Of a stretch of 64,000 bases of DNA, positions 48,767-61,568 are shown in pieces. The stretch is from Nitrosomonas sp. GTDB lineage: Bacteria > Pseudomonadota > Gammaproteobacteria > Burkholderiales > Nitrosomonadaceae. The notes beneath the pieces were generated by a model. It saw only the letters and a program-made list of their open reading frames with translations, ran no database searches and had not been told where the DNA came from. The stretch spans positions 1 through 64,000 of the forward strand of contig JAGNZK010000004.1 of assembly GCA_017984435.1 (NCBI GenBank), read 5' to 3'. The first letter of the stretch is position 1; each line of letters starts with the position of its first letter. Both the position numbers and the translations under genes were made by a program.

Positions 48767-49326
48767 ATGAGACCAAAACCGCGCACGCCAGAGAGCAATG
48801 ACGTATTTCGCCAATTGGCCCAGGTACCGCAGCACCTCAAGCCCAAGGTTACCGATTTGCTGCAGAAAGTCGAGCGCCTGCTCAAGCAGCAACCGCAAGA
48901 CAGCCACAAACTCTACAGCTTGCATGCGCAGCCTGCCGGGTTAATCCTTACGATGGGCACACCTTACACCTGGTTTTGGAGCAGGCGGCAATCCTGATGC
49001 AGCAGCAACCTAAGGAAGTGTTCGTAGACTTGGGTTATCGCGGTGCAACTGTCCCGGCTGGGGTCAAGGTCTATCACCGCAAACTCAGACGCGGCATTAC
49101 CACGCGGCTGAAACGCGATATTCGGCGACGCAGCGCCATCGAACCGGTAATCGGGCATATGAAAAACGACGGCCGCCTTCGCAGAAACTGGCTGCAAGGC
49201 ACAGAAGGCGATGCCTTTCATGCTATCCTCTGCAGGTTGCGGACACAACCTGCGGATGATCCTGAGGAAGCTGCGACTTCTTCTTGTCTTGATTTTCCTG
49301 CGCTTGGATTGGCCATCAATCAATGA
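48767..49326 (+). pseudogene. IS5-family transposase with an internal deletion and frameshifts
   Basis: The start (PKPRTPESNDVFRQLAQVPQ onward) runs to HKLYSLHA, where the family continues into about fifty residues of the catalytic region that are missing here. After the junction at about 48930 the sequence goes on in a different frame as NPYDGHTLHLVLEQAAILMQ, then EVFVDLGYRGATVPAGVKVY and RRRSAIEPVIGHMKNDGRLR with the catalytic Glu region. A further frame change near 49235 restores the end (GHNLRMILRKLRLLLVLI). It is not functional. Confidence 0.8.
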
Positions 49327-49531: not shown

Positions 49532-50287
49532 TTATTTTCGGATTTTGTATCCTGTTTTTAGCATTCGCAATGTGCACCACGATACCACTAGGAACCATGC
49601 CACCAGAATCCCAAGGCTAAGGTAAGGTGAAACATCCGAGACGCGAAAGAAGCCGTAGCGAAACCCGTCTACCATGTAGAAAAACGGATTCATATACGAT
49701 AATCCTTGCCAGAATGGAGGCAACGAGGAGATCGTATAGAATACCCCCGATAAAAATGTCAGTGGCAGGATGATAAAGTTTTGCAACGCAGCAAGCTGTT
49801 CAAATTTTTCCGCCCAAATACCCGCAATGATGCCTAAGGCACCCAGCAACGCAGCGCCTATCAAGGCAAATGTGAATACCCATGCGAACGAGTACAGGGG
49901 AAGTTCAAAAAACGCCAGCGTCACCACGTAGATACCCAGTCCTACCAGCAAACCACGAACGACCGATGCTAGTACATAAGCAGTGAATATCTCCTGGTAA
50001 GAAAGCGGCGATAACAACATGAAGATGTGATTACCCGAGACCGTCGATTGAATCAGGCTTGATGAGGAGTTAGCGAAAGCGTTCTGCAACAGAGCCATTA
50101 TCACCAATCCGGGGATCAGAAAAACCGTGTAGGTTACACCGGGATATACCTGCACTCTTTCTTCCAGCGCGTGAGAAAAAATCAATAGATAAAGCAAGGT
50201 AGACAGTATGGGTGCAAATACGGTCTGGAGGCCGACTTTCCAGAATCGCAGCAGTTCCTTGTAGAGCAATGTAAGAAATCCATTCAT
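49532..50287 (-). CDS. yadH: ABC-2 type transporter permease (YadH-like)
   Basis: Integral membrane subunit of an ABC-2 exporter. The 251 residues have six hydrophobic segments and the ABC-2 signature toward the end (FLSGVFYTISSLPPFWQGLS and NPFFYMVDGFRYGFF). It overlaps the upstream ATPase gene by four bases and forms a two-gene operon with it. The family includes YadGH and drug or polysaccharide exporters; the substrate is unknown. It is the first intact gene of the accessory region after the transposase remnant. Confidence 0.9.
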   Translation of the reverse strand: MNGFLTLLYKELLRFWKVGLQTVFAPILSTLLYLLIFSHALEERVQVYPGVTYTVFLIPGLVIMALLQNAFANSSSSLIQSTVSGNHIFMLLSPLSYQEIFTAYVLASVVRGLLVGLGIYVVTLAFFELPLYSFAWVFTFALIGAALLGALGIIAGIWAEKFEQLAALQNFIILPLTFLSGVFYTISSLPPFWQGLSYMNPFFYMVDGFRYGFFRVSDVSPYLSLGILVAWFLVVSWCTLRMLKTGYKIRK

Positions 50288-51207
50288 ACCGATGCAGATT
50301 CCAAACTCTCTGTTCCGTGCATGAGTTTTACGAACACTTCTTCCAGATCAGGTTGCAATATCTGCATATCCAGAATTTGGGTCTGGGCCGCGTGTAGTGC
50401 TGACATTACATTTTCAAGCTGAGAGTATCCCTCGATCGCCAGAATGTAGGAGCCTTGGTCGTGGTTGATTGTCAGTAACTGTAACGCTGTTGGCAGCGTA
50501 TCGGGAGATAACCGCAGGCGTACCCGGAGTCCGGAAATATTGCTGATGAGATTTCTGACACTGTCAAGAACAACGACACTGCCATTTTTGAGCATTGCCA
50601 CGCGGTTGCATAAAGCTTCTGCTTCTTCGAGATAATGCGTAGTGAGTACAATGGTATGACCGTTGCGGTTTAATTGCTTGATGAAACGCCACAAGGATTG
50701 GCGCAATTCTACATCTACACCTGCGGTGGGTTCATCCAAAATGATTACCGGGGGTTTGTGGACCAATGCTTGGGCTACCAGTACGCGCCGCTTCATGCCG
50801 CCGGACAACGAACGCATGTTGGTATCGGCCTTATCGGAAAGGTCAAGATGGTGGATTATCTCGTCTATCCAGCCGTTATTGTTCTTTATGCCGAAATAGC
50901 CGGATTGAAACACAAGCGTTTCCCGAACGGTAAAGAACGGATCAAATACCAACTCCTGCGGCACCACGCCCAGCATGCGACGTGCTTCACGGTACCCGGT
51001 GACGACATCATGCCCCATTACCCTGACACTGCCGCTGCTGGCAAGGGTAAGACCTGCGATGATATTGATCAGCGTCGTCTTTCCCGCCCCATTAGGGCCA
51101 AGTAAAGCAAAGAATTCGCCGACATTGATTTCGAGATCAACGCCGTACAAGGCATGCAACGTACCAAAGCGCTTATGCACCTGTCTAACTTCAATTGCCG
51201 GTATCAT
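50284..51207 (-). CDS. yadG: ABC transporter ATP-binding protein (YadG-like)
   Basis: ATPase partner of the ABC-2 permease. It shows Walker A GPNGAGKTTL (about residues 35-44), signature LSGGMKRRV (about 134-142), Walker B VIILDEPTAGVD (about 154-165) and the switch His in LTTHYLEEAE. The C-terminal extension (about residues 220-307) is typical of the drug-export (CcmA/YadG) subfamily. The 307-residue protein starts with ATG 51207 and overlaps the permease start (ATGA). The gap from 51208 to the gshA end holds no other gene that I can support. Confidence 0.92.
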   Translation of the reverse strand: MIPAIEVRQVHKRFGTLHALYGVDLEINVGEFFALLGPNGAGKTTLINIIAGLTLASSGSVRVMGHDVVTGYREARRMLGVVPQELVFDPFFTVRETLVFQSGYFGIKNNNGWIDEIIHHLDLSDKADTNMRSLSGGMKRRVLVAQALVHKPPVIILDEPTAGVDVELRQSLWRFIKQLNRNGHTIVLTTHYLEEAEALCNRVAMLKNGSVVVLDSVRNLISNISGLRVRLRLSPDTLPTALQLLTINHDQGSYILAIEGYSQLENVMSALHAAQTQILDMQILQPDLEEVFVKLMHGTESLESASV

Positions 51208-51455: not shown

Positions 51456-53129
51456 TTACGAAATTCGTCGAGCAACAGCTCCGACCCCGGTGTCCGGCAA
51501 GTTCTGAAGCAAGTACAACTCCGGGGAATGAACGATGCTGGATGAGGCGCCTTGCGAGAAATAGTTGCTCAGGTATTGATCGAAAGAGATTTCATCCGTG
51601 GTCTCGAGCTGTTTCTGTTGCGCCAGCGATGCCTCGACCTGGAGATCAAAATTCCTCTTTATTGCTGCATCCAGCGCGGCATTCCTGAAATAACGGGTGT
51701 AATCCTGGGACTTCTGCAATACCAGCTCGGTAATTGACATCTTTTGCGCGCGCATGACTGTCAGCATCCTTGCTGAAGCTGTCAACTCGGGAGAGCGAAT
51801 TTTTTCGATCTGCTGATGCAATGCGCGGGTGTAGGGAATATCGGCATTGCCGCTATCCAAGATCTCGCAGATCTCCTGCATCTGCTCACACAGCATCAGG
51901 GCCCACTGCCGCAGCGGGACTTCACGCCTGTTGTCCAGCAGCTTAAGCTTTGGATCCCTGCCACGATTAGCCACCAACAATGCGTTATTGCTGATCTCGG
52001 CATGCTGCTTCAAGTCATGCCCCGAATTGGACTGGAACAAACAGAAAAGACTTAGCGTCTCAAGAAAACGCGTGGTTTCGATTGCTATGCCCGCAGGTTC
52101 AAACACATCAACATCCACGGAGCGTATTTCAACATATTGAATTCCCCGACTTCCCAGCGCCTGTAGCGGCCTCTCTCCGGATCGCGTCGGCTGTTTCGGC
52201 CGCACCGAAGTGTAATACTCATTCTCGATTTGCAAGAAATGAGTATTCAATTGTCGATACCGGTTGCTTGCCTTAATCCCGATTTTTTCATACCCAAGAT
52301 AAGGTATCATCGTTGCCTTGCTCAAATCCCGTATGTATTCCTCGAGGCTGTTGAAGGAAATATGAAACATTGATTGAACGGGATTCAAATAGCCTATCTC
52401 GCTCATCCTCAACGAGGTGGCAAAGGGTTTGTAGCAGGAAGTCTCGTCAAATTCCTGTAACGTACGGGAATAAACAGAGTTGCGACTATCCAGGAAATTT
52501 TTGCTCACTGCCGGGGACGAGCCGAATAAATATAGGATAAGCCAGCCATAACGCTGCAGGTTTCTGATCATTCTCATATAAGCCTGCGTCGTGAAGGATT
52601 GCAGATCGCCGACATTTTTCATCGAATGCTGGTATTGCGGCCAGAATGCTTCGGGAAGCGAATAGTTGAAATGGATCCCGGCGATGACCTGCATACAGCG
52701 GCCATAGCGATAGCTTAAGCCCTGTCTGTAGATGTGCTTCATCCTCCCGACATTGGATGAACCATATTCGGCGATGGGAATGGCAGAATCCTGCAAATCG
52801 CCGACAGGCATACTGGCCGCCAGCAACAATTCGTCATTGATATTGGCGCAGACATATTTATGCAAGTCCATCAAGGAACCCAGCACTTCTGTTTCATCTG
52901 ATAATGCTGGCGTGATCAACTCAAGTAAGGCTTCAGAATAATCAGTTGTAATACTCGGATGAGTCAACGCGGCTCCAAGCTGAAGCGGATGAGGTGACAA
53001 TGATATTGATCCCTCCCGATTAATTCGGAGGCTTTCTTTCTCGATGCCTTTCAAGCCATGAATTAATGACGGCCAAAGAGATTCGTCGATAGTTGTTGGT
53101 CGCTCGCTGCCAGATAATTGTTTTGACAT
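51456..53129 (-). CDS. gshA: Glutamate--cysteine ligase GshA with an apparent C-terminal frameshift
   Basis: ATP-dependent ligase for the first step of glutathione synthesis (E. coli-type GshA). Family motifs are GIEKESLRINREG (about residues 28-40), MPVGDLQDSAIPIAEYGSSN (about 105-124), RYGRCMQVIAGIHFNYSLPE (about 140-159) and RYVEIRSVDVDVFEPAG-like IQYVEIRSVDVDVFEPAGIA. The frame as read ends at 51456 after 557 residues. If one base is removed from the G4 tract (CCCC at 51485-51488 on the plus strand), the frame continues as TGSELLLDEFRKLMQTAQAL to a stop at 51395, giving 577 residues. A LysR-type promoter module lies upstream of its start. Confidence 0.93.
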   Translation of the reverse strand: MSKQLSGSERPTTIDESLWPSLIHGLKGIEKESLRINREGSISLSPHPLQLGAALTHPSITTDYSEALLELITPALSDETEVLGSLMDLHKYVCANINDELLLAASMPVGDLQDSAIPIAEYGSSNVGRMKHIYRQGLSYRYGRCMQVIAGIHFNYSLPEAFWPQYQHSMKNVGDLQSFTTQAYMRMIRNLQRYGWLILYLFGSSPAVSKNFLDSRNSVYSRTLQEFDETSCYKPFATSLRMSEIGYLNPVQSMFHISFNSLEEYIRDLSKATMIPYLGYEKIGIKASNRYRQLNTHFLQIENEYYTSVRPKQPTRSGERPLQALGSRGIQYVEIRSVDVDVFEPAGIAIETTRFLETLSLFCLFQSNSGHDLKQHAEISNNALLVANRGRDPKLKLLDNRREVPLRQWALMLCEQMQEICEILDSGNADIPYTRALHQQIEKIRSPELTASARMLTVMRAQKMSITELVLQKSQDYTRYFRNAALDAAIKRNFDLQVEASLAQQKQLETTDEISFDQYLSNYFSQGASSSIVHSPELYLLQNLPDTGVGAVARRIS

Positions 53130-53141
53130 TTATTCTTTCCG

Positions 53142-53240
53142 ATATTCCTTGCAATAAACAAGTAGTGAAAGTATAGGCTTGGAAGCGGACAGGTGGTAGT
53201 CTGCTGATTCAGTTATCAGAGTTCTGTTTTTGAAACGATG
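53142..53240 (-). repeat. LysR-type promoter module, copy 1 (faces gshA)
   Basis: An ungapped 99-bp inverted copy of 54207-54305; I count 16 mismatches (about 84 percent identity). On the minus strand it holds TTC-N7-GAA at 53222-53234 (a T-N11-A box). A TATACT -10 element lies at 53175-53170. The predicted start near 53163 puts the box centre 65 bases upstream, the classical LysR position. The gshA ATG lies 34 bases after the predicted start. A 20-base block in the middle is identical in both copies. Confidence 0.85.
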
Positions 53241-53290
53241 AGGGTTGCAATAGCAGAAATGGATCCGTTGCGCAGGTTCCGGTGGCTTTC

Positions 53291-54196
53291 TTAGTCCTCA
53301 TGCAGCACCTCGAAACGCTGTGCGAGAAAATCGATCAATGCCCGCACGGATGGCAGAAGACCGCGTCGGGACGGAAACACCGCATGAATGATTATCCGGC
53401 GAGGTGTCCAGTCGGGTACCAGTTTGACCAATAGACCAGCCGTCAGCTGGTCTCGTACCGCAATCACTGGCAGTTCTACTACGCCAACACCGGCCACAGC
53501 GGCATCTCTTAGCGCAACCATGTCCGTCGTCACAAAGCGTGGCGTGTGATGAAGCGTAACGTTTGCACCATCTGGCCCAAGCAGCGCCCAGGCGTGGACT
53601 TGTTGCAGGATCCCCAGACTAAGGCTTGGCCAGTTGTTCAACGCAGCGGGTGTAGCAGGAAAACCGAGCTTTTGTACAAGGATGGGGCTGGCCACTAGGC
53701 ATTGGCTCCGATCAGCTAGGATGCGCATGACCAGATCACTGTCCTGTAAAGGTGGATGGCGCACGCGCAGAGCAACATCCACCGACTCACTGACCAAATC
53801 GACACGTCGGTTGGTCGCCTCCATCTGCACCGTGACGTGCGGATAGCGCACCATGAAATCGGCCAGCATTGCTCCCACATAAGCATTCACCAGCGGTATG
53901 GGGCATGTCATCCGAATTACACCCCGGGGTTCGGCTGTTAGCGTATCTATTGTTTCCTGAGCTCTTTCGGCTTCTACCAGCATCGCTTTGCAACGCATGT
54001 AATAAGCCTCGCCGGCATCGGTAACTGCAAAGTGACGTGTCGAGCGCTGGATCAGGCGCACACCCAAGCGTTCTTCCAGCTTGGCGATGCGGCGGCTAAG
54101 CTTCGATTTCGGCATGCCCAAGGCCCGGCCTGCCGGAGCAAAGCCGCCATGATCCACGGCTTGGACGTAGTAGTAGAGATCATTCAGGTCTTGCAT
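53291..54196 (-). CDS. LysR-family transcriptional regulator
   Basis: A 301-residue LysR-type regulator when started at ATG 54196 (QDLNDLYYYVQAVDHGGFAP), which matches the usual N-terminus of this subgroup; an upstream TTG at 54217 would lie inside the promoter repeat. The winged HTH covers residues 1-60 (RALGMPKSKLSRRIAKLEER) and the effector domain about 87-290. The gene lies between two inverted promoter modules that face gshA and a GST-like gene. A role in controlling glutathione genes is an inference from this arrangement; the effector is unknown. Confidence 0.9.
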   Translation of the reverse strand: MQDLNDLYYYVQAVDHGGFAPAGRALGMPKSKLSRRIAKLEERLGVRLIQRSTRHFAVTDAGEAYYMRCKAMLVEAERAQETIDTLTAEPRGVIRMTCPIPLVNAYVGAMLADFMVRYPHVTVQMEATNRRVDLVSESVDVALRVRHPPLQDSDLVMRILADRSQCLVASPILVQKLGFPATPAALNNWPSLSLGILQQVHAWALLGPDGANVTLHHTPRFVTTDMVALRDAAVAGVGVVELPVIAVRDQLTAGLLVKLVPDWTPRRIIIHAVFPSRRGLLPSVRALIDFLAQRFEVLHED

Positions 54197-54206
54197 AAGA
54201 GCTACC

Positions 54207-54305
54207 GATAGTTTCAAAAATAGAACTCTGATACCCGAATCAGCAGACTACCACCTGCCCGTCTCCAGGTCTATACTTTGACCACTTGCTAATCGCAAGC
54301 AATAT
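54207..54305 (+). repeat. LysR-type promoter module, copy 2 (upstream of lysR, faces the GST-like gene)
   Basis: Inverted partner of 53142-53240. It contains the T-N11-A box TTCAAAAATAGAA (54213-54225), TATACT (54272-54277) and a predicted start near 54284, again 65 bases from the box centre. The box lies 17-29 bases before the lysR ATG, so binding could also autoregulate lysR. The downstream plus-strand gene is the GST-like gene at 54701. Confidence 0.85.
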
Positions 54306-54309
54306 TTGC

Positions 54310-54700
54310 CAATTGCGCTAGCAAGCCGTTCCCTACTGAAAGAAGTGGTAGTGAGTTAACCAAAAAGAGTATTGAAATGGCAATAAGGTATCGAAGGTTG
54401 CAGCAATTATCCAGAAACAGGTATTCGTGCTTCCAATATGCCGTCATCGCACGAATCAGCGATGTATAAGTTTGGCCTGCTGGATCTGCTTAGAAAAGCA
54501 CTATTCTGAAACGGGCCTCAAACCTTCCCTGGCAGTTGAAGTATATGCAATATTAAATGATGTAACGAGATTTATCCTCATTTGATATTTATGGATAATG
54601 AAGCGAATGCAACTTGGTACTACTGCCGGCAGCACATCAGTACTATGCCTTTAATAAGGCACCTCTTAACATTAATTTGCAATGCAGAAGGAGTTTTACC
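54310..54700 (+). other. Long non-coding leader between promoter module 2 and the GST-like gene
   Basis: About 390 bases without a recognisable gene. It holds an 8-bp inverted repeat, ATTCGTGC (54423-54430) and GCACGAAT (54449-54456), and scattered short frames with no family match. Either the GST-like mRNA has a long leader, or a gene that once followed the promoter has been lost. Confidence 0.4.
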
Positions 54701-55498
54701 ATGTCCACACAATTAAACGTCGAGCGCACGCTGTACGGATTCTGGCTCTCGCCTTATATGTGCCAAGTTGCGCATGTCCTCTCGGAAACCGGTCTAGCTT
54801 ATCGCTATGAACGAGTGTCTCCGTTTCAAGGGAGCACGCTCACGCCAGAGCACATAGAACGAAATCCTCTTGGGAAAATTCCCACTCTTAGGGATGTCAA
54901 TGATATTGATATTTCGGAAAGTCACGCAATCTGTCGTTATCTCGCGAGAATCTACCCAGAAGCACGAAAATTTTATCCTATTGATGATCCGATGCTCTGT
55001 GCAGAGGTCGATGCTAAGAATGATTTCATCACTTTCTCCATAGCAGGCCCATTCTTCAACTGGTTTGTTGTCAGCGGATATTTTCCAAAAGCTTGGAAAC
55101 TCAAGGTTGAAAAAGAAGCACATATCTATCATCTTTGTTCTGCCTTTTTAAGCAAAATGTGGCTATCTCGATTAGTCAACGGCTCGAGAATGGAGCCATT
55201 CCTGCTAGGGAAAGAGCCCTTTCTACCAGATTTCCAGTTGTTCTACACGCTCGAGCTTAGTCAAATGTTTTCCGAGTTGTTTGAAATGCCCGAGATGCAT
55301 CTGTTTCGAGATAATCCTGCATTACAGGCGTTTTACGATGCCATGTGCGAGCGTCCTGCTACCCGTGAAATACTCGCGGCTAAAGAAGCAGAACTCGATG
55401 TTACAAAGAAGGAGCTCTTTGGAGGGTTTGGAGAAGCCTATCTTAGTAAGCATATTGACAAAAAAATCCTTGGAGGGCTATTCGGACGTGAAATCTGA
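54701..55498 (+). CDS. Glutathione S-transferase-like protein
   Basis: A 265-residue protein with an N-terminal thioredoxin-like GST domain (LYGFWLSPYMCQVAHVLSET at about residues 10-29; NPLGKIPTLRDVNDIDISES at about 59-78, including the cis-Pro and the Glu-Ser that bind the gamma-glutamyl part of glutathione) and an all-helical C-terminal domain. ATG 54701 is preceded at seven bases by AAGGAG; the frame is open further upstream but without support. The substrate is unknown. Together with gshA and the LysR module it suggests a glutathione-related regulon. Confidence 0.85.
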   Translation: MSTQLNVERTLYGFWLSPYMCQVAHVLSETGLAYRYERVSPFQGSTLTPEHIERNPLGKIPTLRDVNDIDISESHAICRYLARIYPEARKFYPIDDPMLCAEVDAKNDFITFSIAGPFFNWFVVSGYFPKAWKLKVEKEAHIYHLCSAFLSKMWLSRLVNGSRMEPFLLGKEPFLPDFQLFYTLELSQMFSELFEMPEMHLFRDNPALQAFYDAMCERPATREILAAKEAELDVTKKELFGGFGEAYLSKHIDKKILGGLFGREI

Positions 55499-55781: not shown

Positions 55782-57869
55782 ATGCAAAATCATCTGGAAA
55801 GTAATGTCATACGGCGCGTGATGGTAGGCACCGACCGCTCCGAAACCGCTGACCAGGCCGTCCACTGGGCCGCCGGGTTTGCCGACCGCTACGATGCAGA
55901 GCTGTTCGTGGTACAGGTGGTGGTGACGCAGTATCCGTCCGCCACAGAATTCGGCGAAGCCGAACAAACGCGCGCTGCGGCTGACAACAATGACCTGACG
56001 CACTTCGCGCGGCAGGTCGCCGGGGACCGCGGTCATGCCCGGGTCGTCATTGATGCTGATCCGGCATTGGCGATCGTCCATGCTGCTGAGCAGGAAGCAG
56101 TCGATGTACTAGTGGTCGGCAATTTTGGCATGGCGGGTCGAAAAGAGTTTTTGCTCGGTAACATACCGAATCGCATCAGTCACAGTGCTCACTGCACCGT
56201 GATTATTGTAAACACCGCGCACTCTACCGGTGAGCATGCATCGGGCTCGGTGCGAGCTCATCTATCTAAGGGTGACACCCCGTCTTTTGAGCCTCCACTG
56301 GTAGCGCGTGCTACGCATATCGCAGCCGTGATGGCGAAACATGGCCTCACAGAGCTGTTCGGCCAATCCAACGAACCGGATATGTCCATCCGTCGTCAGC
56401 GGGCCAAACGCTTGCGTGCCGCTTTGGAAGAACTGGGACCGATATTCTCGAAACTCGGGCAAGTGTTATCAACCCGTCCCGATCTCCTTCCAATCGAATA
56501 TATTGAGGAGCTTACCCTGTTGCAATCCCGCGTGCCGCCAATGACTGAGAGCGAGGTTGTCCGGGTTTCTGAACAGGAATTGGGAGTCCCGTGGGAGGAT
56601 GTATTCAAGTCGATCGACCCGAAGCCCCTCGCCGCCGGCACAATCGCTCAAGTCCATCGTGCGACACTCGAAAGTGGTGATCGGGTCGTAGTCAAGGTCC
56701 AGCGCCCCACCGCTCGTGCTGATATCGAACAGGATCTCGCTCTGCTCGAAGTGTTTGCGGAGAAAGTCGGAAAGCGTCCTGCGCTCAATCAGGTGATCGA
56801 CATGGAGGCCGTGTTCAAACACCTCTCCACCTCGCTCCATCGTGAACTCGACTTCCGTCAGGAGGCCGGCAACATTGAGCGGATGCAGGCGGTGCTCGCA
56901 GGCTATGATCGCCTTGCTGTACCCAAAGTACATCGGGATTTGTCCACGTCCCGATTATTGGTGATGGAAGAGATCCAGGGCATACCGATTAAGCAGGCGC
57001 CAGCTGGCCCAGAGCGCATCCAGGCCGCTCGCCAATTGTTGGAGAGCTACTACAAACAGATCATCGTTGATGGCTTCTTCCACGCCGACCCTCACCCAGG
57101 CAATCTGATGTGGTGGAAGGACTGCATCTATTTTCTCGATTTCGGAATGGTCGGCGAGGTAGGAGCCGATCTCCGCGAGCATCTCTTGTTAATGTTGATG
57201 GCTCTGTGGCAGGAAGATGCCGGGTTTCTCACCGATGTCACATTGATGATGACGAGCGGCGTCAATAATGGCGATCTCGATGCGGCCAAATTCCAGAGCG
57301 AGATCGGGGAAGTGATGGCAAGATATCGCACAGCCTCGCTTGCCGAGATGCAGATCGGGCCGCTTCTGCAAGAAATGAGCGCGGTCTCATTACGACACGG
57401 GGTGCCGCTACCGGCTTCGCTCACGCTCGCCACAAAGGCGCTTGCGCAGGTACAGCTGGCAACTGCCGAGCTCGATCCAGCACTTGATCCTTATGACGTA
57501 GCAGGCAAGTACTTGATACGCTTGATGGTCAAACGCATGAGTGTCGCGCTCAATCCAAAGACATTTGTGTATCAATCGCAGAAGCTGAAAGTACGGGTTC
57601 TGCGTGTGGTAGAGGCGGTCGAAAACCTCGTCGGTGTTCGACCTGGTGGCTCAAAGCTTGCGGTGAACTTCCAAGCCAATTCGCTGGAGGATATAGTGCG
57701 TCACACGGGACAACGGCTGGCACTCGGCCTGACCGCTGCTGCAAGTGTCCTGGCCAGTGGATTCACGGCCACATCGATGGTTGTTTCCGAATGGGTGCCG
57801 ATAACATTCGGGGTCGTCGCAGGTCTGCTGATCCTTGGCCTAGTTATCGATCTGCTGCGAGGGCGTTGA
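55782..57869 (+). CDS. Fusion of a universal stress protein domain and an ABC1/UbiB-family kinase
   Basis: A 695-residue protein in one frame. Residues about 10-145 form a Usp domain with the ATP-binding pattern G-x2-G-x9-GN in GNFGMAGRKEFLLGN. Residues about 165-600 form an ABC1/AarF/UbiB atypical kinase: KxGQ motif in IFSKLGQVLSTRPDLLP, the Ala/Gly-rich loop AAGTIAQVH (usually AAASIGQVH), VVVKVQRP, ExD in ELDFRQE, the catalytic HADPHPGN and metal-binding DFGM. Two C-terminal helices (about 640-690) anchor it in the membrane. UbiB relatives support ubiquinone synthesis. The Usp fusion suggests stress- or ATP-sensing control, which is inference. The gene looks GC-rich compared with the core. 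Confidence 0.88.
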   Translation: MQNHLESNVIRRVMVGTDRSETADQAVHWAAGFADRYDAELFVVQVVVTQYPSATEFGEAEQTRAAADNNDLTHFARQVAGDRGHARVVIDADPALAIVHAAEQEAVDVLVVGNFGMAGRKEFLLGNIPNRISHSAHCTVIIVNTAHSTGEHASGSVRAHLSKGDTPSFEPPLVARATHIAAVMAKHGLTELFGQSNEPDMSIRRQRAKRLRAALEELGPIFSKLGQVLSTRPDLLPIEYIEELTLLQSRVPPMTESEVVRVSEQELGVPWEDVFKSIDPKPLAAGTIAQVHRATLESGDRVVVKVQRPTARADIEQDLALLEVFAEKVGKRPALNQVIDMEAVFKHLSTSLHRELDFRQEAGNIERMQAVLAGYDRLAVPKVHRDLSTSRLLVMEEIQGIPIKQAPAGPERIQAARQLLESYYKQIIVDGFFHADPHPGNLMWWKDCIYFLDFGMVGEVGADLREHLLLMLMALWQEDAGFLTDVTLMMTSGVNNGDLDAAKFQSEIGEVMARYRTASLAEMQIGPLLQEMSAVSLRHGVPLPASLTLATKALAQVQLATAELDPALDPYDVAGKYLIRLMVKRMSVALNPKTFVYQSQKLKVRVLRVVEAVENLVGVRPGGSKLAVNFQANSLEDIVRHTGQRLALGLTAAASVLASGFTATSMVVSEWVPITFGVVAGLLILGLVIDLLRGR

Positions 57870-58157: not shown

Positions 58158-61100
58158 ATGGTGCCCATGATGAATGATCGTATAACAGCATGGCTGGATA
58201 ATCTTGGTCTCAGTATATATCTTGAGTCGTTTCAGCGCAATGCGATCACTTGGGATGTTCTAACCGAGCTGAATGAGGGTGATCTGGAGGCGCTGGGGGT
58301 CTTATTGGGACATCGAAAAATACTCTTGCGCGCGATCGCTCAATTGTCACAGAGCGCTGCAATTATAAGCCCGGAGTTTATACCCGTTAACGTCATTCCT
58401 GAAGAACAACCGTTCCCTCCCGAACGAGATCAAGCAGAACGTCGCCAGTTGACGGTGATGTTTTGTGATCTTGTGGATTCGACAGCACTGTCTAGCCGGT
58501 TGGACCCTGAAGATCTCCAGGATGTGATCCGACGGTTTTTAGACGCCTGTAGCCAAGCGATTGGTCAGCTAAATGGCTATATCGCAAAATATATGGGGGA
58601 TGGGATGTTGGTCTATTTTGGATACCCTCATGCCCACGAAAATGATGCGGAACGAGCGGTCCATGCCGGACTGGCTATTCTAGACACAGTGAGAGCGCTT
58701 AATCTAGACAATTCCCATCCACAATTTGGTATTTCTGCACGAATCGGGATCGCCACTGGTCAAGTCGTAGTCGGCGAACTAATGGGGCAGGGCATCGCCA
58801 AGGAACGGTCAGTGTTCGGTGAAACCCCAAATCTCGCCGCTCGCCTCCAAGCACTGGCTAAACCCAATCAATTGATCATTGATCCGGCAACGAAACGGCT
58901 TGTCGGAAACGAATTCGAGTTCTTGGATCTTGGCGCCTTTTCGCTGAAAGGGTTCGACACACCTATCCAGGTCTGGCAGATTCTGAGTATCAGGCTATCG
59001 GTCAGCCGGTTTGAGTCCTATCGATCCAGCCAATTAGCTAAATTCGTAGGTAGAGAACAGGAAATTTCACTCCTATTGGGCCGCTGGCGGGAAGCCGCCG
59101 ACGGCGAAGGACAGGTCGTACTTCTGAGCGGTGAGGCAGGCATCGGAAAATCGAGGATTGCCCGTAGTTTGTGTGACCGCCTTGCAAATGAACGGCACCA
59201 GACGATTCAGTTTCAATGTTCACCGTACCATACCAATACGGCGCTCTATCCGGCGATCAATTTTCTGCGGCAGGCAGCGGGACTGGCCAGTCAAGACAGC
59301 ACCCAGGCGCAACTGCAAAAGCTCGATGCTCTGGTTCGCGAAAGCGGAATCGAGAACCAGAGTACGGTGTCATTGCTGGCGGATCTGCTCTCGATCCGCG
59401 GAGATCACTGGAATCCGCTGCCCAATGTGTTATCCGAAAAACGCAAGGACATGACGCTGGAAGCACTCGTGCAATATTTACAAGGGCTGGCCGATCACGA
59501 TCTCGTGTTGTTCATTGTGGAAGATGCCCATTGGCTTGATCCAACAACGCTGGAACTCATGACGCGTATCATTGGCCGCATCCGGCAGATGTGCGTGTTG
59601 TTATTGATAACATCTCGACCCGATTTCAAACCGGTGTGGTCGGAATATAGTTACGTGACGTCACTGACGCTCAGTCGGCTCCCACGTCGACATAGCGCTG
59701 AACTCGTTTCGACAATGACAGGAGGAAAAGTGCTTCCGCTCGAGGTGCAGCAGGCGATTCTGGCTAAAGCCGATGGCATACCTCTCTATATCGAAACGTT
59801 GACGGAAAATGTGCTGGGATCCGGGCTTCTGGCTGAGGAAAACGATTCATTTACTTTGAAGTGCCCCCTCAAAGGATTGCCCATTCCGGACAGTCTGCAA
59901 GCGTTGCTCATGGAACGAGTGGACCGATTGGGGTCGGCCAAAGAAATTATCCAAACCGGAGCAGCAATAGGGCGTGAATTTACCTACGAGCTATTACAGG
60001 CTACGGTCGAAATTCCGGACAGCCAGTTGAAAAAAGCCCTCGACCTAATCGTCGCGTCTGGACTCATATTCCAAGAGGGCGAGATACCCCTTGCGACCTA
60101 TCATTTTAAGCATGCGCTGGTCCAAGACGCGGCCTACAGCACCCTACCCAAGAAACCCCGGTGGCTACTTCATACTCGAATCGCCAAAACACTGGAGAAC
60201 CAATTCTCCGAGCGAGTAAACATGGAACCGGAACTCCTAGCCTATCACTATGAACAAGCAGGTTTGGCTGGTCCAGCCGTTGATTATTGGCATCGCGCGG
60301 CTCGTCGCGATGCGGAGCGATCAGCCAATATTGAAGCGCTCAATCATTTTAATAGGGCGCTAGATTTACTAAAGGAACTTCCGGAAGGACTGGAGCGGAA
60401 TACCTTGGAGTTGGAACTCCTGCTTACACGCGGAAGCCCACTGCTGGCCGTCAAAGGCTATGCATCCGACGACATGGAACATAATTATCAAAGAGCGAAG
60501 GATTTGTTATCGGAGCAAAGCAGCTCTGTAGATCAGTTTCGAGTCATTCGGGGATTATGGGTCGTTCATATGATCAGAGGGCACCTCGTCAATGCGCGTG
60601 GTCTGGCCGAAGATCTCCTCGCGCTGGCTCACCGCGAACAAATCCCGGATCTGCTGATTGAGGCTCACCATGCTGTAGGAGCGATCAACCTATTTTTTGG
60701 TCGATTCGATGAAGCCAGAATCCACCTATCCACCGCAAAATCCCTTGACGTTCCGGATAGACACCGCTCGCAGGTCTTCTTCTACGGACAAGATTCTGGA
60801 ATAACTGCGAGGATTCTGCTTGCCAGGACTTTATGGATATTAGGTGAGCTTGATCAAGCTGAAACACTGGCTTTGGAGACGATAGGTATGGCGAGAGCAT
60901 TGGAGCACCCATTCACTCATGTTTTTACTCTCATTTTTCTTGCCTGGATCTACGCCGGTGCCCGCAAAGCAAAGAAAACACTGGAGTTCACCGATGAAGC
61001 AATCGCGGCTTCAACACAATACTCATTTGAATTGGGATTGGCGTGGGCGACAGCCTCTCAAGGTTGGGCATTGGCCAACATAGGACAGGGAGAAGAAGGT

Positions 61101-61568
61101 CTCGCCAAATTAATTAATGGGCTTTCTGCGACTCGAGCTACAGGTGCGATTACTAACAACACGTCTACATTGGCGTTACTGGCAGAAATCTATTTACGTA
61201 GCGATAGAATTGACGAAGGCTTGGGTGTCATTGAGGAAGCGCAGAAACTTGCTGTCACTGGAGGAGAATTATTTTGGCAAGCGGAGTTGTTTCGACTGAA
61301 AGGCGAACTGCTGCTGGGGCAGTCCGACAAATCAGTCCAAGAAGCAGAAGAGTGTTTGTGTGAAGCCTTAAAAATTGCTCAGGATCAGCATGCAACAATG
61401 TTTGAGCTTCGAGCCGCCACGAGCCTGGCTAAACTTTGGAGAAAACTCAATAGAGCCGATGATGCCAAACGTGTCTTACATTCTATTTACTCCAGGTTCA
61501 ACGAACAAGTCGACAACCTCGACTTGATTGAAGCCAAAACAGTTCTAGAACAGCTTAGTGATACGTAG
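58158..61568 (+). CDS. SAM domain-adenylate cyclase-AAA ATPase-TPR signalling protein
   Basis: A 1136-residue protein. Residues about 5-65 form a SAM domain (AWLDNLGLSIYLESFQRNAI). Residues about 90-275 form a class III nucleotide cyclase with both metal-binding Asp (VMFCDLVDSTALS and MGDGMLVYFGYPHAHENDAE) and ETPNLAARLQ, SLKGFDTPIQVW. An ATPase module follows, with FVGREQEISLL, Walker A SGEAGIGKSR (about 323) and Walker B LVLFIVEDAHWLDP (about 450). The rest is TPR-like helical repeats. Such proteins are predicted sensors whose ATPase/TPR part controls the cyclase. The start can be 58158 or the ATGs at 58167/58170. The ligand is unknown. Confidence 0.88.
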   Translation: MVPMMNDRITAWLDNLGLSIYLESFQRNAITWDVLTELNEGDLEALGVLLGHRKILLRAIAQLSQSAAIISPEFIPVNVIPEEQPFPPERDQAERRQLTVMFCDLVDSTALSSRLDPEDLQDVIRRFLDACSQAIGQLNGYIAKYMGDGMLVYFGYPHAHENDAERAVHAGLAILDTVRALNLDNSHPQFGISARIGIATGQVVVGELMGQGIAKERSVFGETPNLAARLQALAKPNQLIIDPATKRLVGNEFEFLDLGAFSLKGFDTPIQVWQILSIRLSVSRFESYRSSQLAKFVGREQEISLLLGRWREAADGEGQVVLLSGEAGIGKSRIARSLCDRLANERHQTIQFQCSPYHTNTALYPAINFLRQAAGLASQDSTQAQLQKLDALVRESGIENQSTVSLLADLLSIRGDHWNPLPNVLSEKRKDMTLEALVQYLQGLADHDLVLFIVEDAHWLDPTTLELMTRIIGRIRQMCVLLLITSRPDFKPVWSEYSYVTSLTLSRLPRRHSAELVSTMTGGKVLPLEVQQAILAKADGIPLYIETLTENVLGSGLLAEENDSFTLKCPLKGLPIPDSLQALLMERVDRLGSAKEIIQTGAAIGREFTYELLQATVEIPDSQLKKALDLIVASGLIFQEGEIPLATYHFKHALVQDAAYSTLPKKPRWLLHTRIAKTLENQFSERVNMEPELLAYHYEQAGLAGPAVDYWHRAARRDAERSANIEALNHFNRALDLLKELPEGLERNTLELELLLTRGSPLLAVKGYASDDMEHNYQRAKDLLSEQSSSVDQFRVIRGLWVVHMIRGHLVNARGLAEDLLALAHREQIPDLLIEAHHAVGAINLFFGRFDEARIHLSTAKSLDVPDRHRSQVFFYGQDSGITARILLARTLWILGELDQAETLALETIGMARALEHPFTHVFTLIFLAWIYAGARKAKKTLEFTDEAIAASTQYSFELGLAWATASQGWALANIGQGEEGLAKLINGLSATRATGAITNNTSTLALLAEIYLRSDRIDEGLGVIEEAQKLAVTGGELFWQAELFRLKGELLLGQSDKSVQEAEECLCEALKIAQDQHATMFELRAATSLAKLWRKLNRADDAKRVLHSIYSRFNEQVDNLDLIEAKTVLEQLSDT

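Follow-up and report, generated by a model that had tools for sequence, protein, structure and literature searches.

Several described systems share features with the locus reported here, and the accessible parts of the corresponding papers give the following picture. The LysR-type protein BexR of Pseudomonas aeruginosa occupies its own promoter and also the promoter of a hydrolase operon with a pirin homologue among its genes (PMC2796861). In Escherichia coli, YhaJ, a LysR-type regulator encoded divergently from the pirin-like gene yhaK, responds to quinol-like compounds and has a box, TCA-N7-TGA, that is common to several promoters (PMC5031710). In the case of Rhodococcus sp. AD45, isoprene oxidation genes, a glutathione transferase (GST) gene and gshAB lie in one cluster, and the GST conjugates the epoxide product (PMC7143210). 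For the ammonia oxidiser Nitrosomonas europaea, the AmoC subunit AmoC3 has been linked to stress (PMC5960693). Judged by titles and the starts of abstracts, the papers listed by searches of the open-access literature include none on a LysR controlling gshA together with a GST in ammonia oxidisers, and none of those listed was found to describe the operator of a PRK14997-type LysR. The AmoC3 stress response is under sigma-E control.

In this study we have analysed a 64,000-nucleotide stretch of Nitrosomonas DNA (the window), in which a lysR gene lies between two inverted modules. As the original prediction held, 53142..53240 (minus strand) and 54207..54305 (plus strand) are ungapped inverted 99-bp copies, with 16 mismatches in 99 positions on alignment; a repeat search of the window returned the same pair as 98-nt arms of 85% identity. 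The left module faces gshA and is a copy of the one upstream of lysR, while the right one lies between lysR and a GST-like gene. Each contains a T-N11-A palindrome that we propose as the LysR recognition site, GTTTCAAAAACAGAAC in the gshA module (53221..53236, minus strand) and GTTTCAAAAATAGAAC in the lysR/GST module (54211..54226, plus strand), and a -10 element, TATACT, at module positions 66-71 (53170..53175, minus strand, for gshA; 54272..54277, plus strand, toward the GST gene), which is kept in an alignment of module copies (A1). The spacing of these elements is identical in the two modules. By hand count, the box is centred on position 12.5 of each copy, that is, at -65.5 from the predicted transcription starts (54284 and 53163), in keeping with the predicted distance of about 65 bases; a T-N11-A box some 65 bases before the target start, here a predicted one, is the arrangement of LysR-type transcriptional regulators (LTTRs), and both modules have it. 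The leaders also came out as foreseen, one of 34 bases for gshA and a long one for the GST gene (417 bases to the ATG at 54701). Only 12 bases separate the left module from the gshA start (53129), and 10 bases the right module from the lysR start (54196). A clear -35 hexamer is absent from both promoters, and a consensus sigma-70 scan picked up neither of them, its one other match falling within the range of shuffled sequences. It is very probable that both repeats are copies of a single operator-promoter of the intervening LysR, which would activate gshA and the GST gene together.

As an alternative recognition site we considered an inner palindrome, CTGATACCCGAATCAG. It is palindromic in some copies only, whereas GTTY-N8-GAAC is widely kept, and the box first proposed therefore stands. 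The left arm of this palindrome reads GTTT in the window modules and GTTC in other genomes.

The regulator gene (53291..54196, minus strand) belongs to the PRK14997 group (NF011573, 453.2 bits against a cut-off of 380), and its product has both LTTR domains, the HTH_1 domain (PF00126, 65.9 bits) and the LysR substrate domain (PF03466, 102.3 bits), each over its cut-off. By sequence, the closest solved chains are 7trw for the effector part and 7trv for the DNA-binding part, both titled LysR-family regulator and presumably Yersinia YfbA. Downstream of the left module, gshA (51456..53129, minus strand) encodes a glutamate-cysteine ligase (TIGR01434, 516 bits; cut-off 393) that represents a second type in this genome. 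It is followed on the same strand by the genes for an ABC transporter ATP-binding protein (50284..51207; PF00005, 121 bits) and then an ABC-2 type permease (49532..50287; PF01061, 112 bits). On the other side, the GST-like gene (54701..55498, plus strand) has PF02798, PF13417 and PF13409 over their cut-offs. An open reading frame beside the ABC genes (48976-49326) had on inspection resembled the terminal part of an IS5-type transposase, but it has no Pfam match at E 0.001 and was therefore dropped as evidence. Farther along, the window encodes a universal stress protein domain fused to a UbiB/ABC1 kinase-like domain (55782-57869) and a protein combining SAM, nucleotide cyclase, AAA ATPase and TPR-like parts, below the TIGR03903 cut-off (58158-61568).

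Three models of the module were used. R1 derives from the 35-sequence alignment A1 and was trained on copies from the host's family, an exact duplicate in genome G115 being omitted. R2 has 65 rows, including the two window copies and three family copies. As R2 thus contained window and family copies, R3 was built without any family sequence, from 60 upstream regions outside the host's family; two loci with the palindrome (L160 and L166) were left out of both R2 and R3. In the host genome (2.8 Mb in 85 contigs, 92% complete), the right copy as query found the left one at E 2.1e-25 and next a 20-base stretch at E 2.9. R3 found the window copies only, at E 4.5e-6 and, for the gshA copy, 3.7e-5, and neither R2 nor R3 gave a site beyond the two window modules. 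A third R1 site at E 0.15 was taken as chance. Sequence search, R1 and R3 agree on two clear copies in this genome, both in the window.

Outside the host's family, the regulator has a conserved genetic context. A scan with the LysR alignment gave a longer list, of which the best 80 named loci were considered and 72 used as the outside set (L117, from a family genome, was excluded; L135, from N. nitrosa, also of the family, was kept). The divergent gene is a pirin gene by BLAST in 60 of the 72, among the matches listed; PF02678 and PF00857 were verified on a pirin and a hydrolase, each taken from a family genome, and the others were named by BLAST to these. Upstream of lysR, GTTC-N8-G[AG]AC occurs in 62 of 71 regions among the matches listed (L143 was excluded, its lysR starting 96 bases from the locus end), against a mean of 0.2 and a maximum of 2 in 200 letter shuffles of these regions. 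In L135 both the palindrome and a nearby divergent pirin gene are missing, and omitting this locus gives 62 of 70. Behind the palindrome, CTA[CT] is present in 56 of the 71 regions, in 54 of them at one distance, and a -10-like hexamer, reported for 46 of the 56, stands at the window's distance in 43 (again among the matches listed). The best-kept columns outside the family (GTTC, G.AC, CTGA, TT, CTAC and TA..CT) are those kept in the window. With R1, 39 of the 72 outside loci gave a site ahead of lysR, and many of these sites are weak (E up to 0.07).

A search of 369 genomes of the host's class with R2, whose strict filters lose weak sites, gave 11 sites in nine genomes, two of them the window's own. 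Of the other nine, seven lie beside a LysR gene and six beside a pirin gene; five of the seven LysR proteins are 56-64% identical and two 42-43%. The corresponding nine 3-kb loci have no gshA, gshB or GST match at E 1e-6, so that in this sample the glutathione wiring is unseen outside the host's family. Taken as a pattern of sequence conservation, the module is the putative operator-promoter that the PRK14997 LysR carries upstream of its own gene across Proteobacteria. The modules could in principle be read by another regulator or by sigma factor only, with LysR as a bystander; the recurrence of the palindrome upstream of the same LysR among the outside matches, together with the LysR gene adjoining seven of the nine class-wide sites outside the host genome, makes this very unlikely.

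The original prediction had proposed a search of related genomes for the module. Among 126 genomes of the host's family, the host included, a DNA search found it in 21, and it recurs upstream of gshA in 13, including G094, where some 7.5 kb separate gshA from lysR (the others are the host genome, G000, and G024, G027, G065, G076, G078, G085, G089, G090, G110, G114 and G115). Strong R1 sites in the family fall into three groups, upstream of lysR, ahead of gshA, and in front of a tautomerase gene that has no adjacent lysR; those upstream of lysR face a GST gene, amoC, a tautomerase gene, a pirin gene or another gene. Applied to 33 sources, R3 gave 36 sites, including all 13 gshA copies. The window type of gshA has 32 matches in 26 of the 126 genomes. 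Of the 19 copies without a module, ten fetched loci (L095-L104) were scanned with R1 and R3, neither of which found a site, and nine were judged by a family-wide R1 search with a stricter filter. In five of the ten fetched loci (L095, L097, L100, L101 and L103) the module-less gshA stands beside an HxlR gene whose product is 42-46% identical to the HxlR of the amoC operons discussed below, perhaps indicating a different control; in L104 (from G037) a GST gene is near gshA on one strand, with neither a lysR between them nor a module.

The module on gshA goes together with the regulator. All 13 genomes with it have lysR (12 by the family-wide search and G078, where the gene is a fragment, by locus comparison), against four of the 13 other gshA-bearing genomes (G037, G104, G105 and G106), a difference whose Fisher p of 0.0005 is inflated by linkage and kinship, related genomes not being independent. 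The nine gshA-bearing genomes that lack lysR have no module on gshA. In each of G094, G110 and G114, an extra gshA lacking the module accompanies the module-bearing one. In 12 of the 13 loci lysR adjoins the module-bearing gshA, and the co-occurrence is therefore in part linkage; in G078 and G085 this lysR lies at a contig edge, and in G078 gshA is interrupted by an internal stop. Next after gshA in all 13 loci comes the ABC pair, preceded by gshB in G076 and G024 and by part of gshB in G110. The recurrence of the module on gshA in 13 genomes, with the box kept upstream of LysR, supports the predicted control of glutathione synthesis and use by one regulator, as far as sequence comparison can indicate it.

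It had been recognised from the outset that the repeats might instead be the terminal inverted repeats of a transposon-like unit carrying lysR. Their inverted orientation around one gene and the patchy distribution of lysR (found in 29 of the 126 family genomes with a cut-off of E 1e-60) would fit, but lysR is the sole open reading frame of at least 80 aa between the arms, with no transposase among them. Furthermore, lysR outside the family has a single, partnerless copy upstream, as a rule facing a pirin gene, the gshA copy of G094 is about 7.5 kb from lysR, and conservation tracks promoter elements, with the -10 elements facing outward. We regard transposon ends as extremely unlikely. An inversion of lysR by recombination between the repeats was also considered and rejected, lysR and gshA being co-oriented in all 12 adjacent loci with no flipped form.

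A related question is whether the left copy is a copied promoter or what remains of another lysR that has been lost together with its divergent promoter. Such a loss seems to have occurred elsewhere, to judge by a stretch resembling a lysR start behind the module before the tautomerase gene of G081 and by the two lysR genes of G108. In the 13 gshA copies, however, the match to the lysR-side copies ends at the box, and the first codons of lysR are not visible past it, which argues for copied promoters, and no second lysR divergent from gshA was found in the 13 module-bearing loci. A relic thus appears unlikely, and we retain the reading of a duplicated promoter.

A duplicated promoter might still be passive, maintained by gene conversion between the inverted repeats and irrelevant to gshA expression. 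In the 11 of 13 genomes with both copies (G085 and G078 have no lysR-side copy and were omitted), within-genome pairs agree at 0.857 against 0.794 for permuted pairs (p 0.0005); omitting G076 and G024 weakens the effect (0.850 against 0.822, p 0.03), and gshA and lysR copies are unseparated in a tree. This likeness is compatible with conversion between the two copies or with their having changed together with the regulator. Conversion alone, though, would not hold the box and the -10 element above the spacer, as the column conservation of the gshA copies shows them to be: 0.91 in the box arms, 0.95 in the box centre, 0.95 in AGACTACA and 0.97 in the -10 element (whose columns are one base off for the window rows, owing to an alignment gap), against 0.77 in the spacer and 0.83-0.86 in the remaining columns. 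In addition, the module is maintained in G094 away from lysR, and it ends 11-14 bases before the gshA reading frame in 12 of the 13 genomes (116 bases in G085). A passive left copy is, in our view, highly improbable.

The gene reached by the left copy is not the usual ligase of the family. The latter, a ligase of the ferrooxidans type, passes the TIGR02049 cut-off in 110 of the 126 genomes, among them the host genome (G000:C1:43061-44272). The window gshA thus adds a ligase of a different type. Both types occur in 12 of the 13 module-bearing genomes; G110 retains the ferrooxidans type only as a fragment (E 6e-5), plus a second gshA without a module. A TIGR02049 match is absent in 12 genomes, eight of which (G057, G060, G095, G096, G100, G103, G104 and G113) have a module-less TIGR01434 gshA, while in the other four (G107, G120, G121 and G125) a gshA match was absent at the threshold applied. 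In G075, G105, G106 and G112 the ferrooxidans gene is broken into pieces (those of G105 reach the cut-off only when summed), and all four carry a gshA without the module. Exceptions to a strict rule are G094, G114 and G037, with the ferrooxidans type plus a module-less gshA. Most simply, these genomes would have one basal ligase, to which a regulated one is added where the module is present.

On the divergent side, the module faces amoC in six relatives (G094, G110, G111, G114, G115 and G081), with the operon order amoC, c8, an HxlR regulator gene and GST, except for one G115 locus (L038) with amoC alone. The identity of amoC was checked with PF04896 on three copies, that of G081 being a fragment, and c8 has no Pfam or NCBIfam match at E 0.01. 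In Nitrosospira-type relatives this is a singleton amoC under the same promoter, with c8 and the HxlR regulator (for example, L042:11746-12561). In the host assembly, amoC is found in pieces only (G000:C67 and G000:C55), perhaps from collapse of repeated amo operons. Between promoter and amoC there is a small open reading frame of 51 aa, intact in the six genomes in seven copies; its product, as seen in L037, L038, L039, L041, L042, L043 and L044, has a hydrophobic end. The frame is altered but open in G065 and truncated to 30-31 aa in the host genome and in G090, G089 and G027, the 30-aa remnant of the window lying at 54377..54469 (plus strand) by leader and frame comparison. As the leaders upstream of amoC and GST can be aligned over their length and the small frame is shortened, the long GST leader of the window is probably what is left of the start of a lost amoC-containing operon. 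Other relatives have as divergent gene a GST gene with a short leader, a tautomerase plus aldehyde dehydrogenase, a pirin or an isochorismatase-domain hydrolase.

The operator common to both genes, its position, its tie to the LysR and the second ligase are read from these comparisons, and from them we infer the order of duplication, LysR binding, activation and the inducer as follows. The right copy would be the ancestral one, the upstream region of LysR itself, driving the divergent gene, which is a GST gene now and an amoC-c8-hxlR-GST operon in some relatives. The left copy would have arisen when the whole promoter was duplicated, inverted and set 12 bases ahead of gshA, which would bring both genes under the one LysR. 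LysR dimers may bind the GTTY-N8-GAAC palindrome at about -65 and the CTGA...CTAC stretch toward the -35 region. The range of alternative targets (pirin, tautomerase, aldehyde dehydrogenase, GST and glutathione synthesis) points to a reactive electrophile, such as a quinone, an aldehyde or an epoxide, as the probable inducer; once induced, LysR would activate the TATACT promoters, and the second glutamate-cysteine ligase and the glutathione transferase would rise together. By analogy with the isoprene/GST/gshAB cluster of Rhodococcus AD45, by-products of ammonia monooxygenase would be a plausible source of such electrophiles.

A broader model, which is possible but which we put forward only tentatively, would make this a stress regulon of ammonia oxidisers. 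The LysR operator-promoter would have been copied onto a non-housekeeping ligase, together with an ABC exporter and, in some genomes, gshB, and the parent copy would drive a singleton amoC, a small protein and a GST in some relatives; glutathione might be made and used against by-products of ammonia monooxygenase, with conversion keeping the operators matched.

The locus offers a testable answer to how a gene may join a regulon, namely by taking the whole 99-bp promoter from the regulator's own gene, and it gives a defined, predicted operator for a widespread LysR group. It further suggests that ammonia oxidisers have a second, inducible supply of glutathione, which in relatives is connected with a singleton amoC and with GST; this bears on the survival of nitrifiers during co-oxidation of pollutants.

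All together, the closest counterpart is the LysR-pirin pair of Beta- and Gammaproteobacteria, with which the window shares the regulator group, the palindrome, the distance from box to -10 element and the module directly upstream of lysR. The neighbour there is a pirin or isochorismatase-domain hydrolase gene, whereas the window has a GST gene instead and a second copy on gshA. BexR, as described in the accessible part of its report, resembles the role proposed for the window LysR in occupying its own promoter plus a second one; unlike the case here, the word glutathione is absent from that paper's text (PMC2796861). The YhaJ box TCA-N7-TGA, in the partial description at hand, may be set beside the conserved GTTC-N8-GAAC element of the window (PMC5031710). 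The AD45 locus, so far as the available sections describe it, is by contrast a catabolic cluster with a marR-type regulator and no copied LysR promoter, and its oxidation genes are in the cluster itself, while in the window's lineage amoC stands at the locus in relatives only (PMC7143210). For AmoC3, no link of the stress response to a LysR, a GST or gshA was found in the accessible portion of the report (PMC5960693). The locus is of a known kind, an LTTR regulon; its wiring, in which a second gshA has received a copy of an entire promoter, appears to be new.
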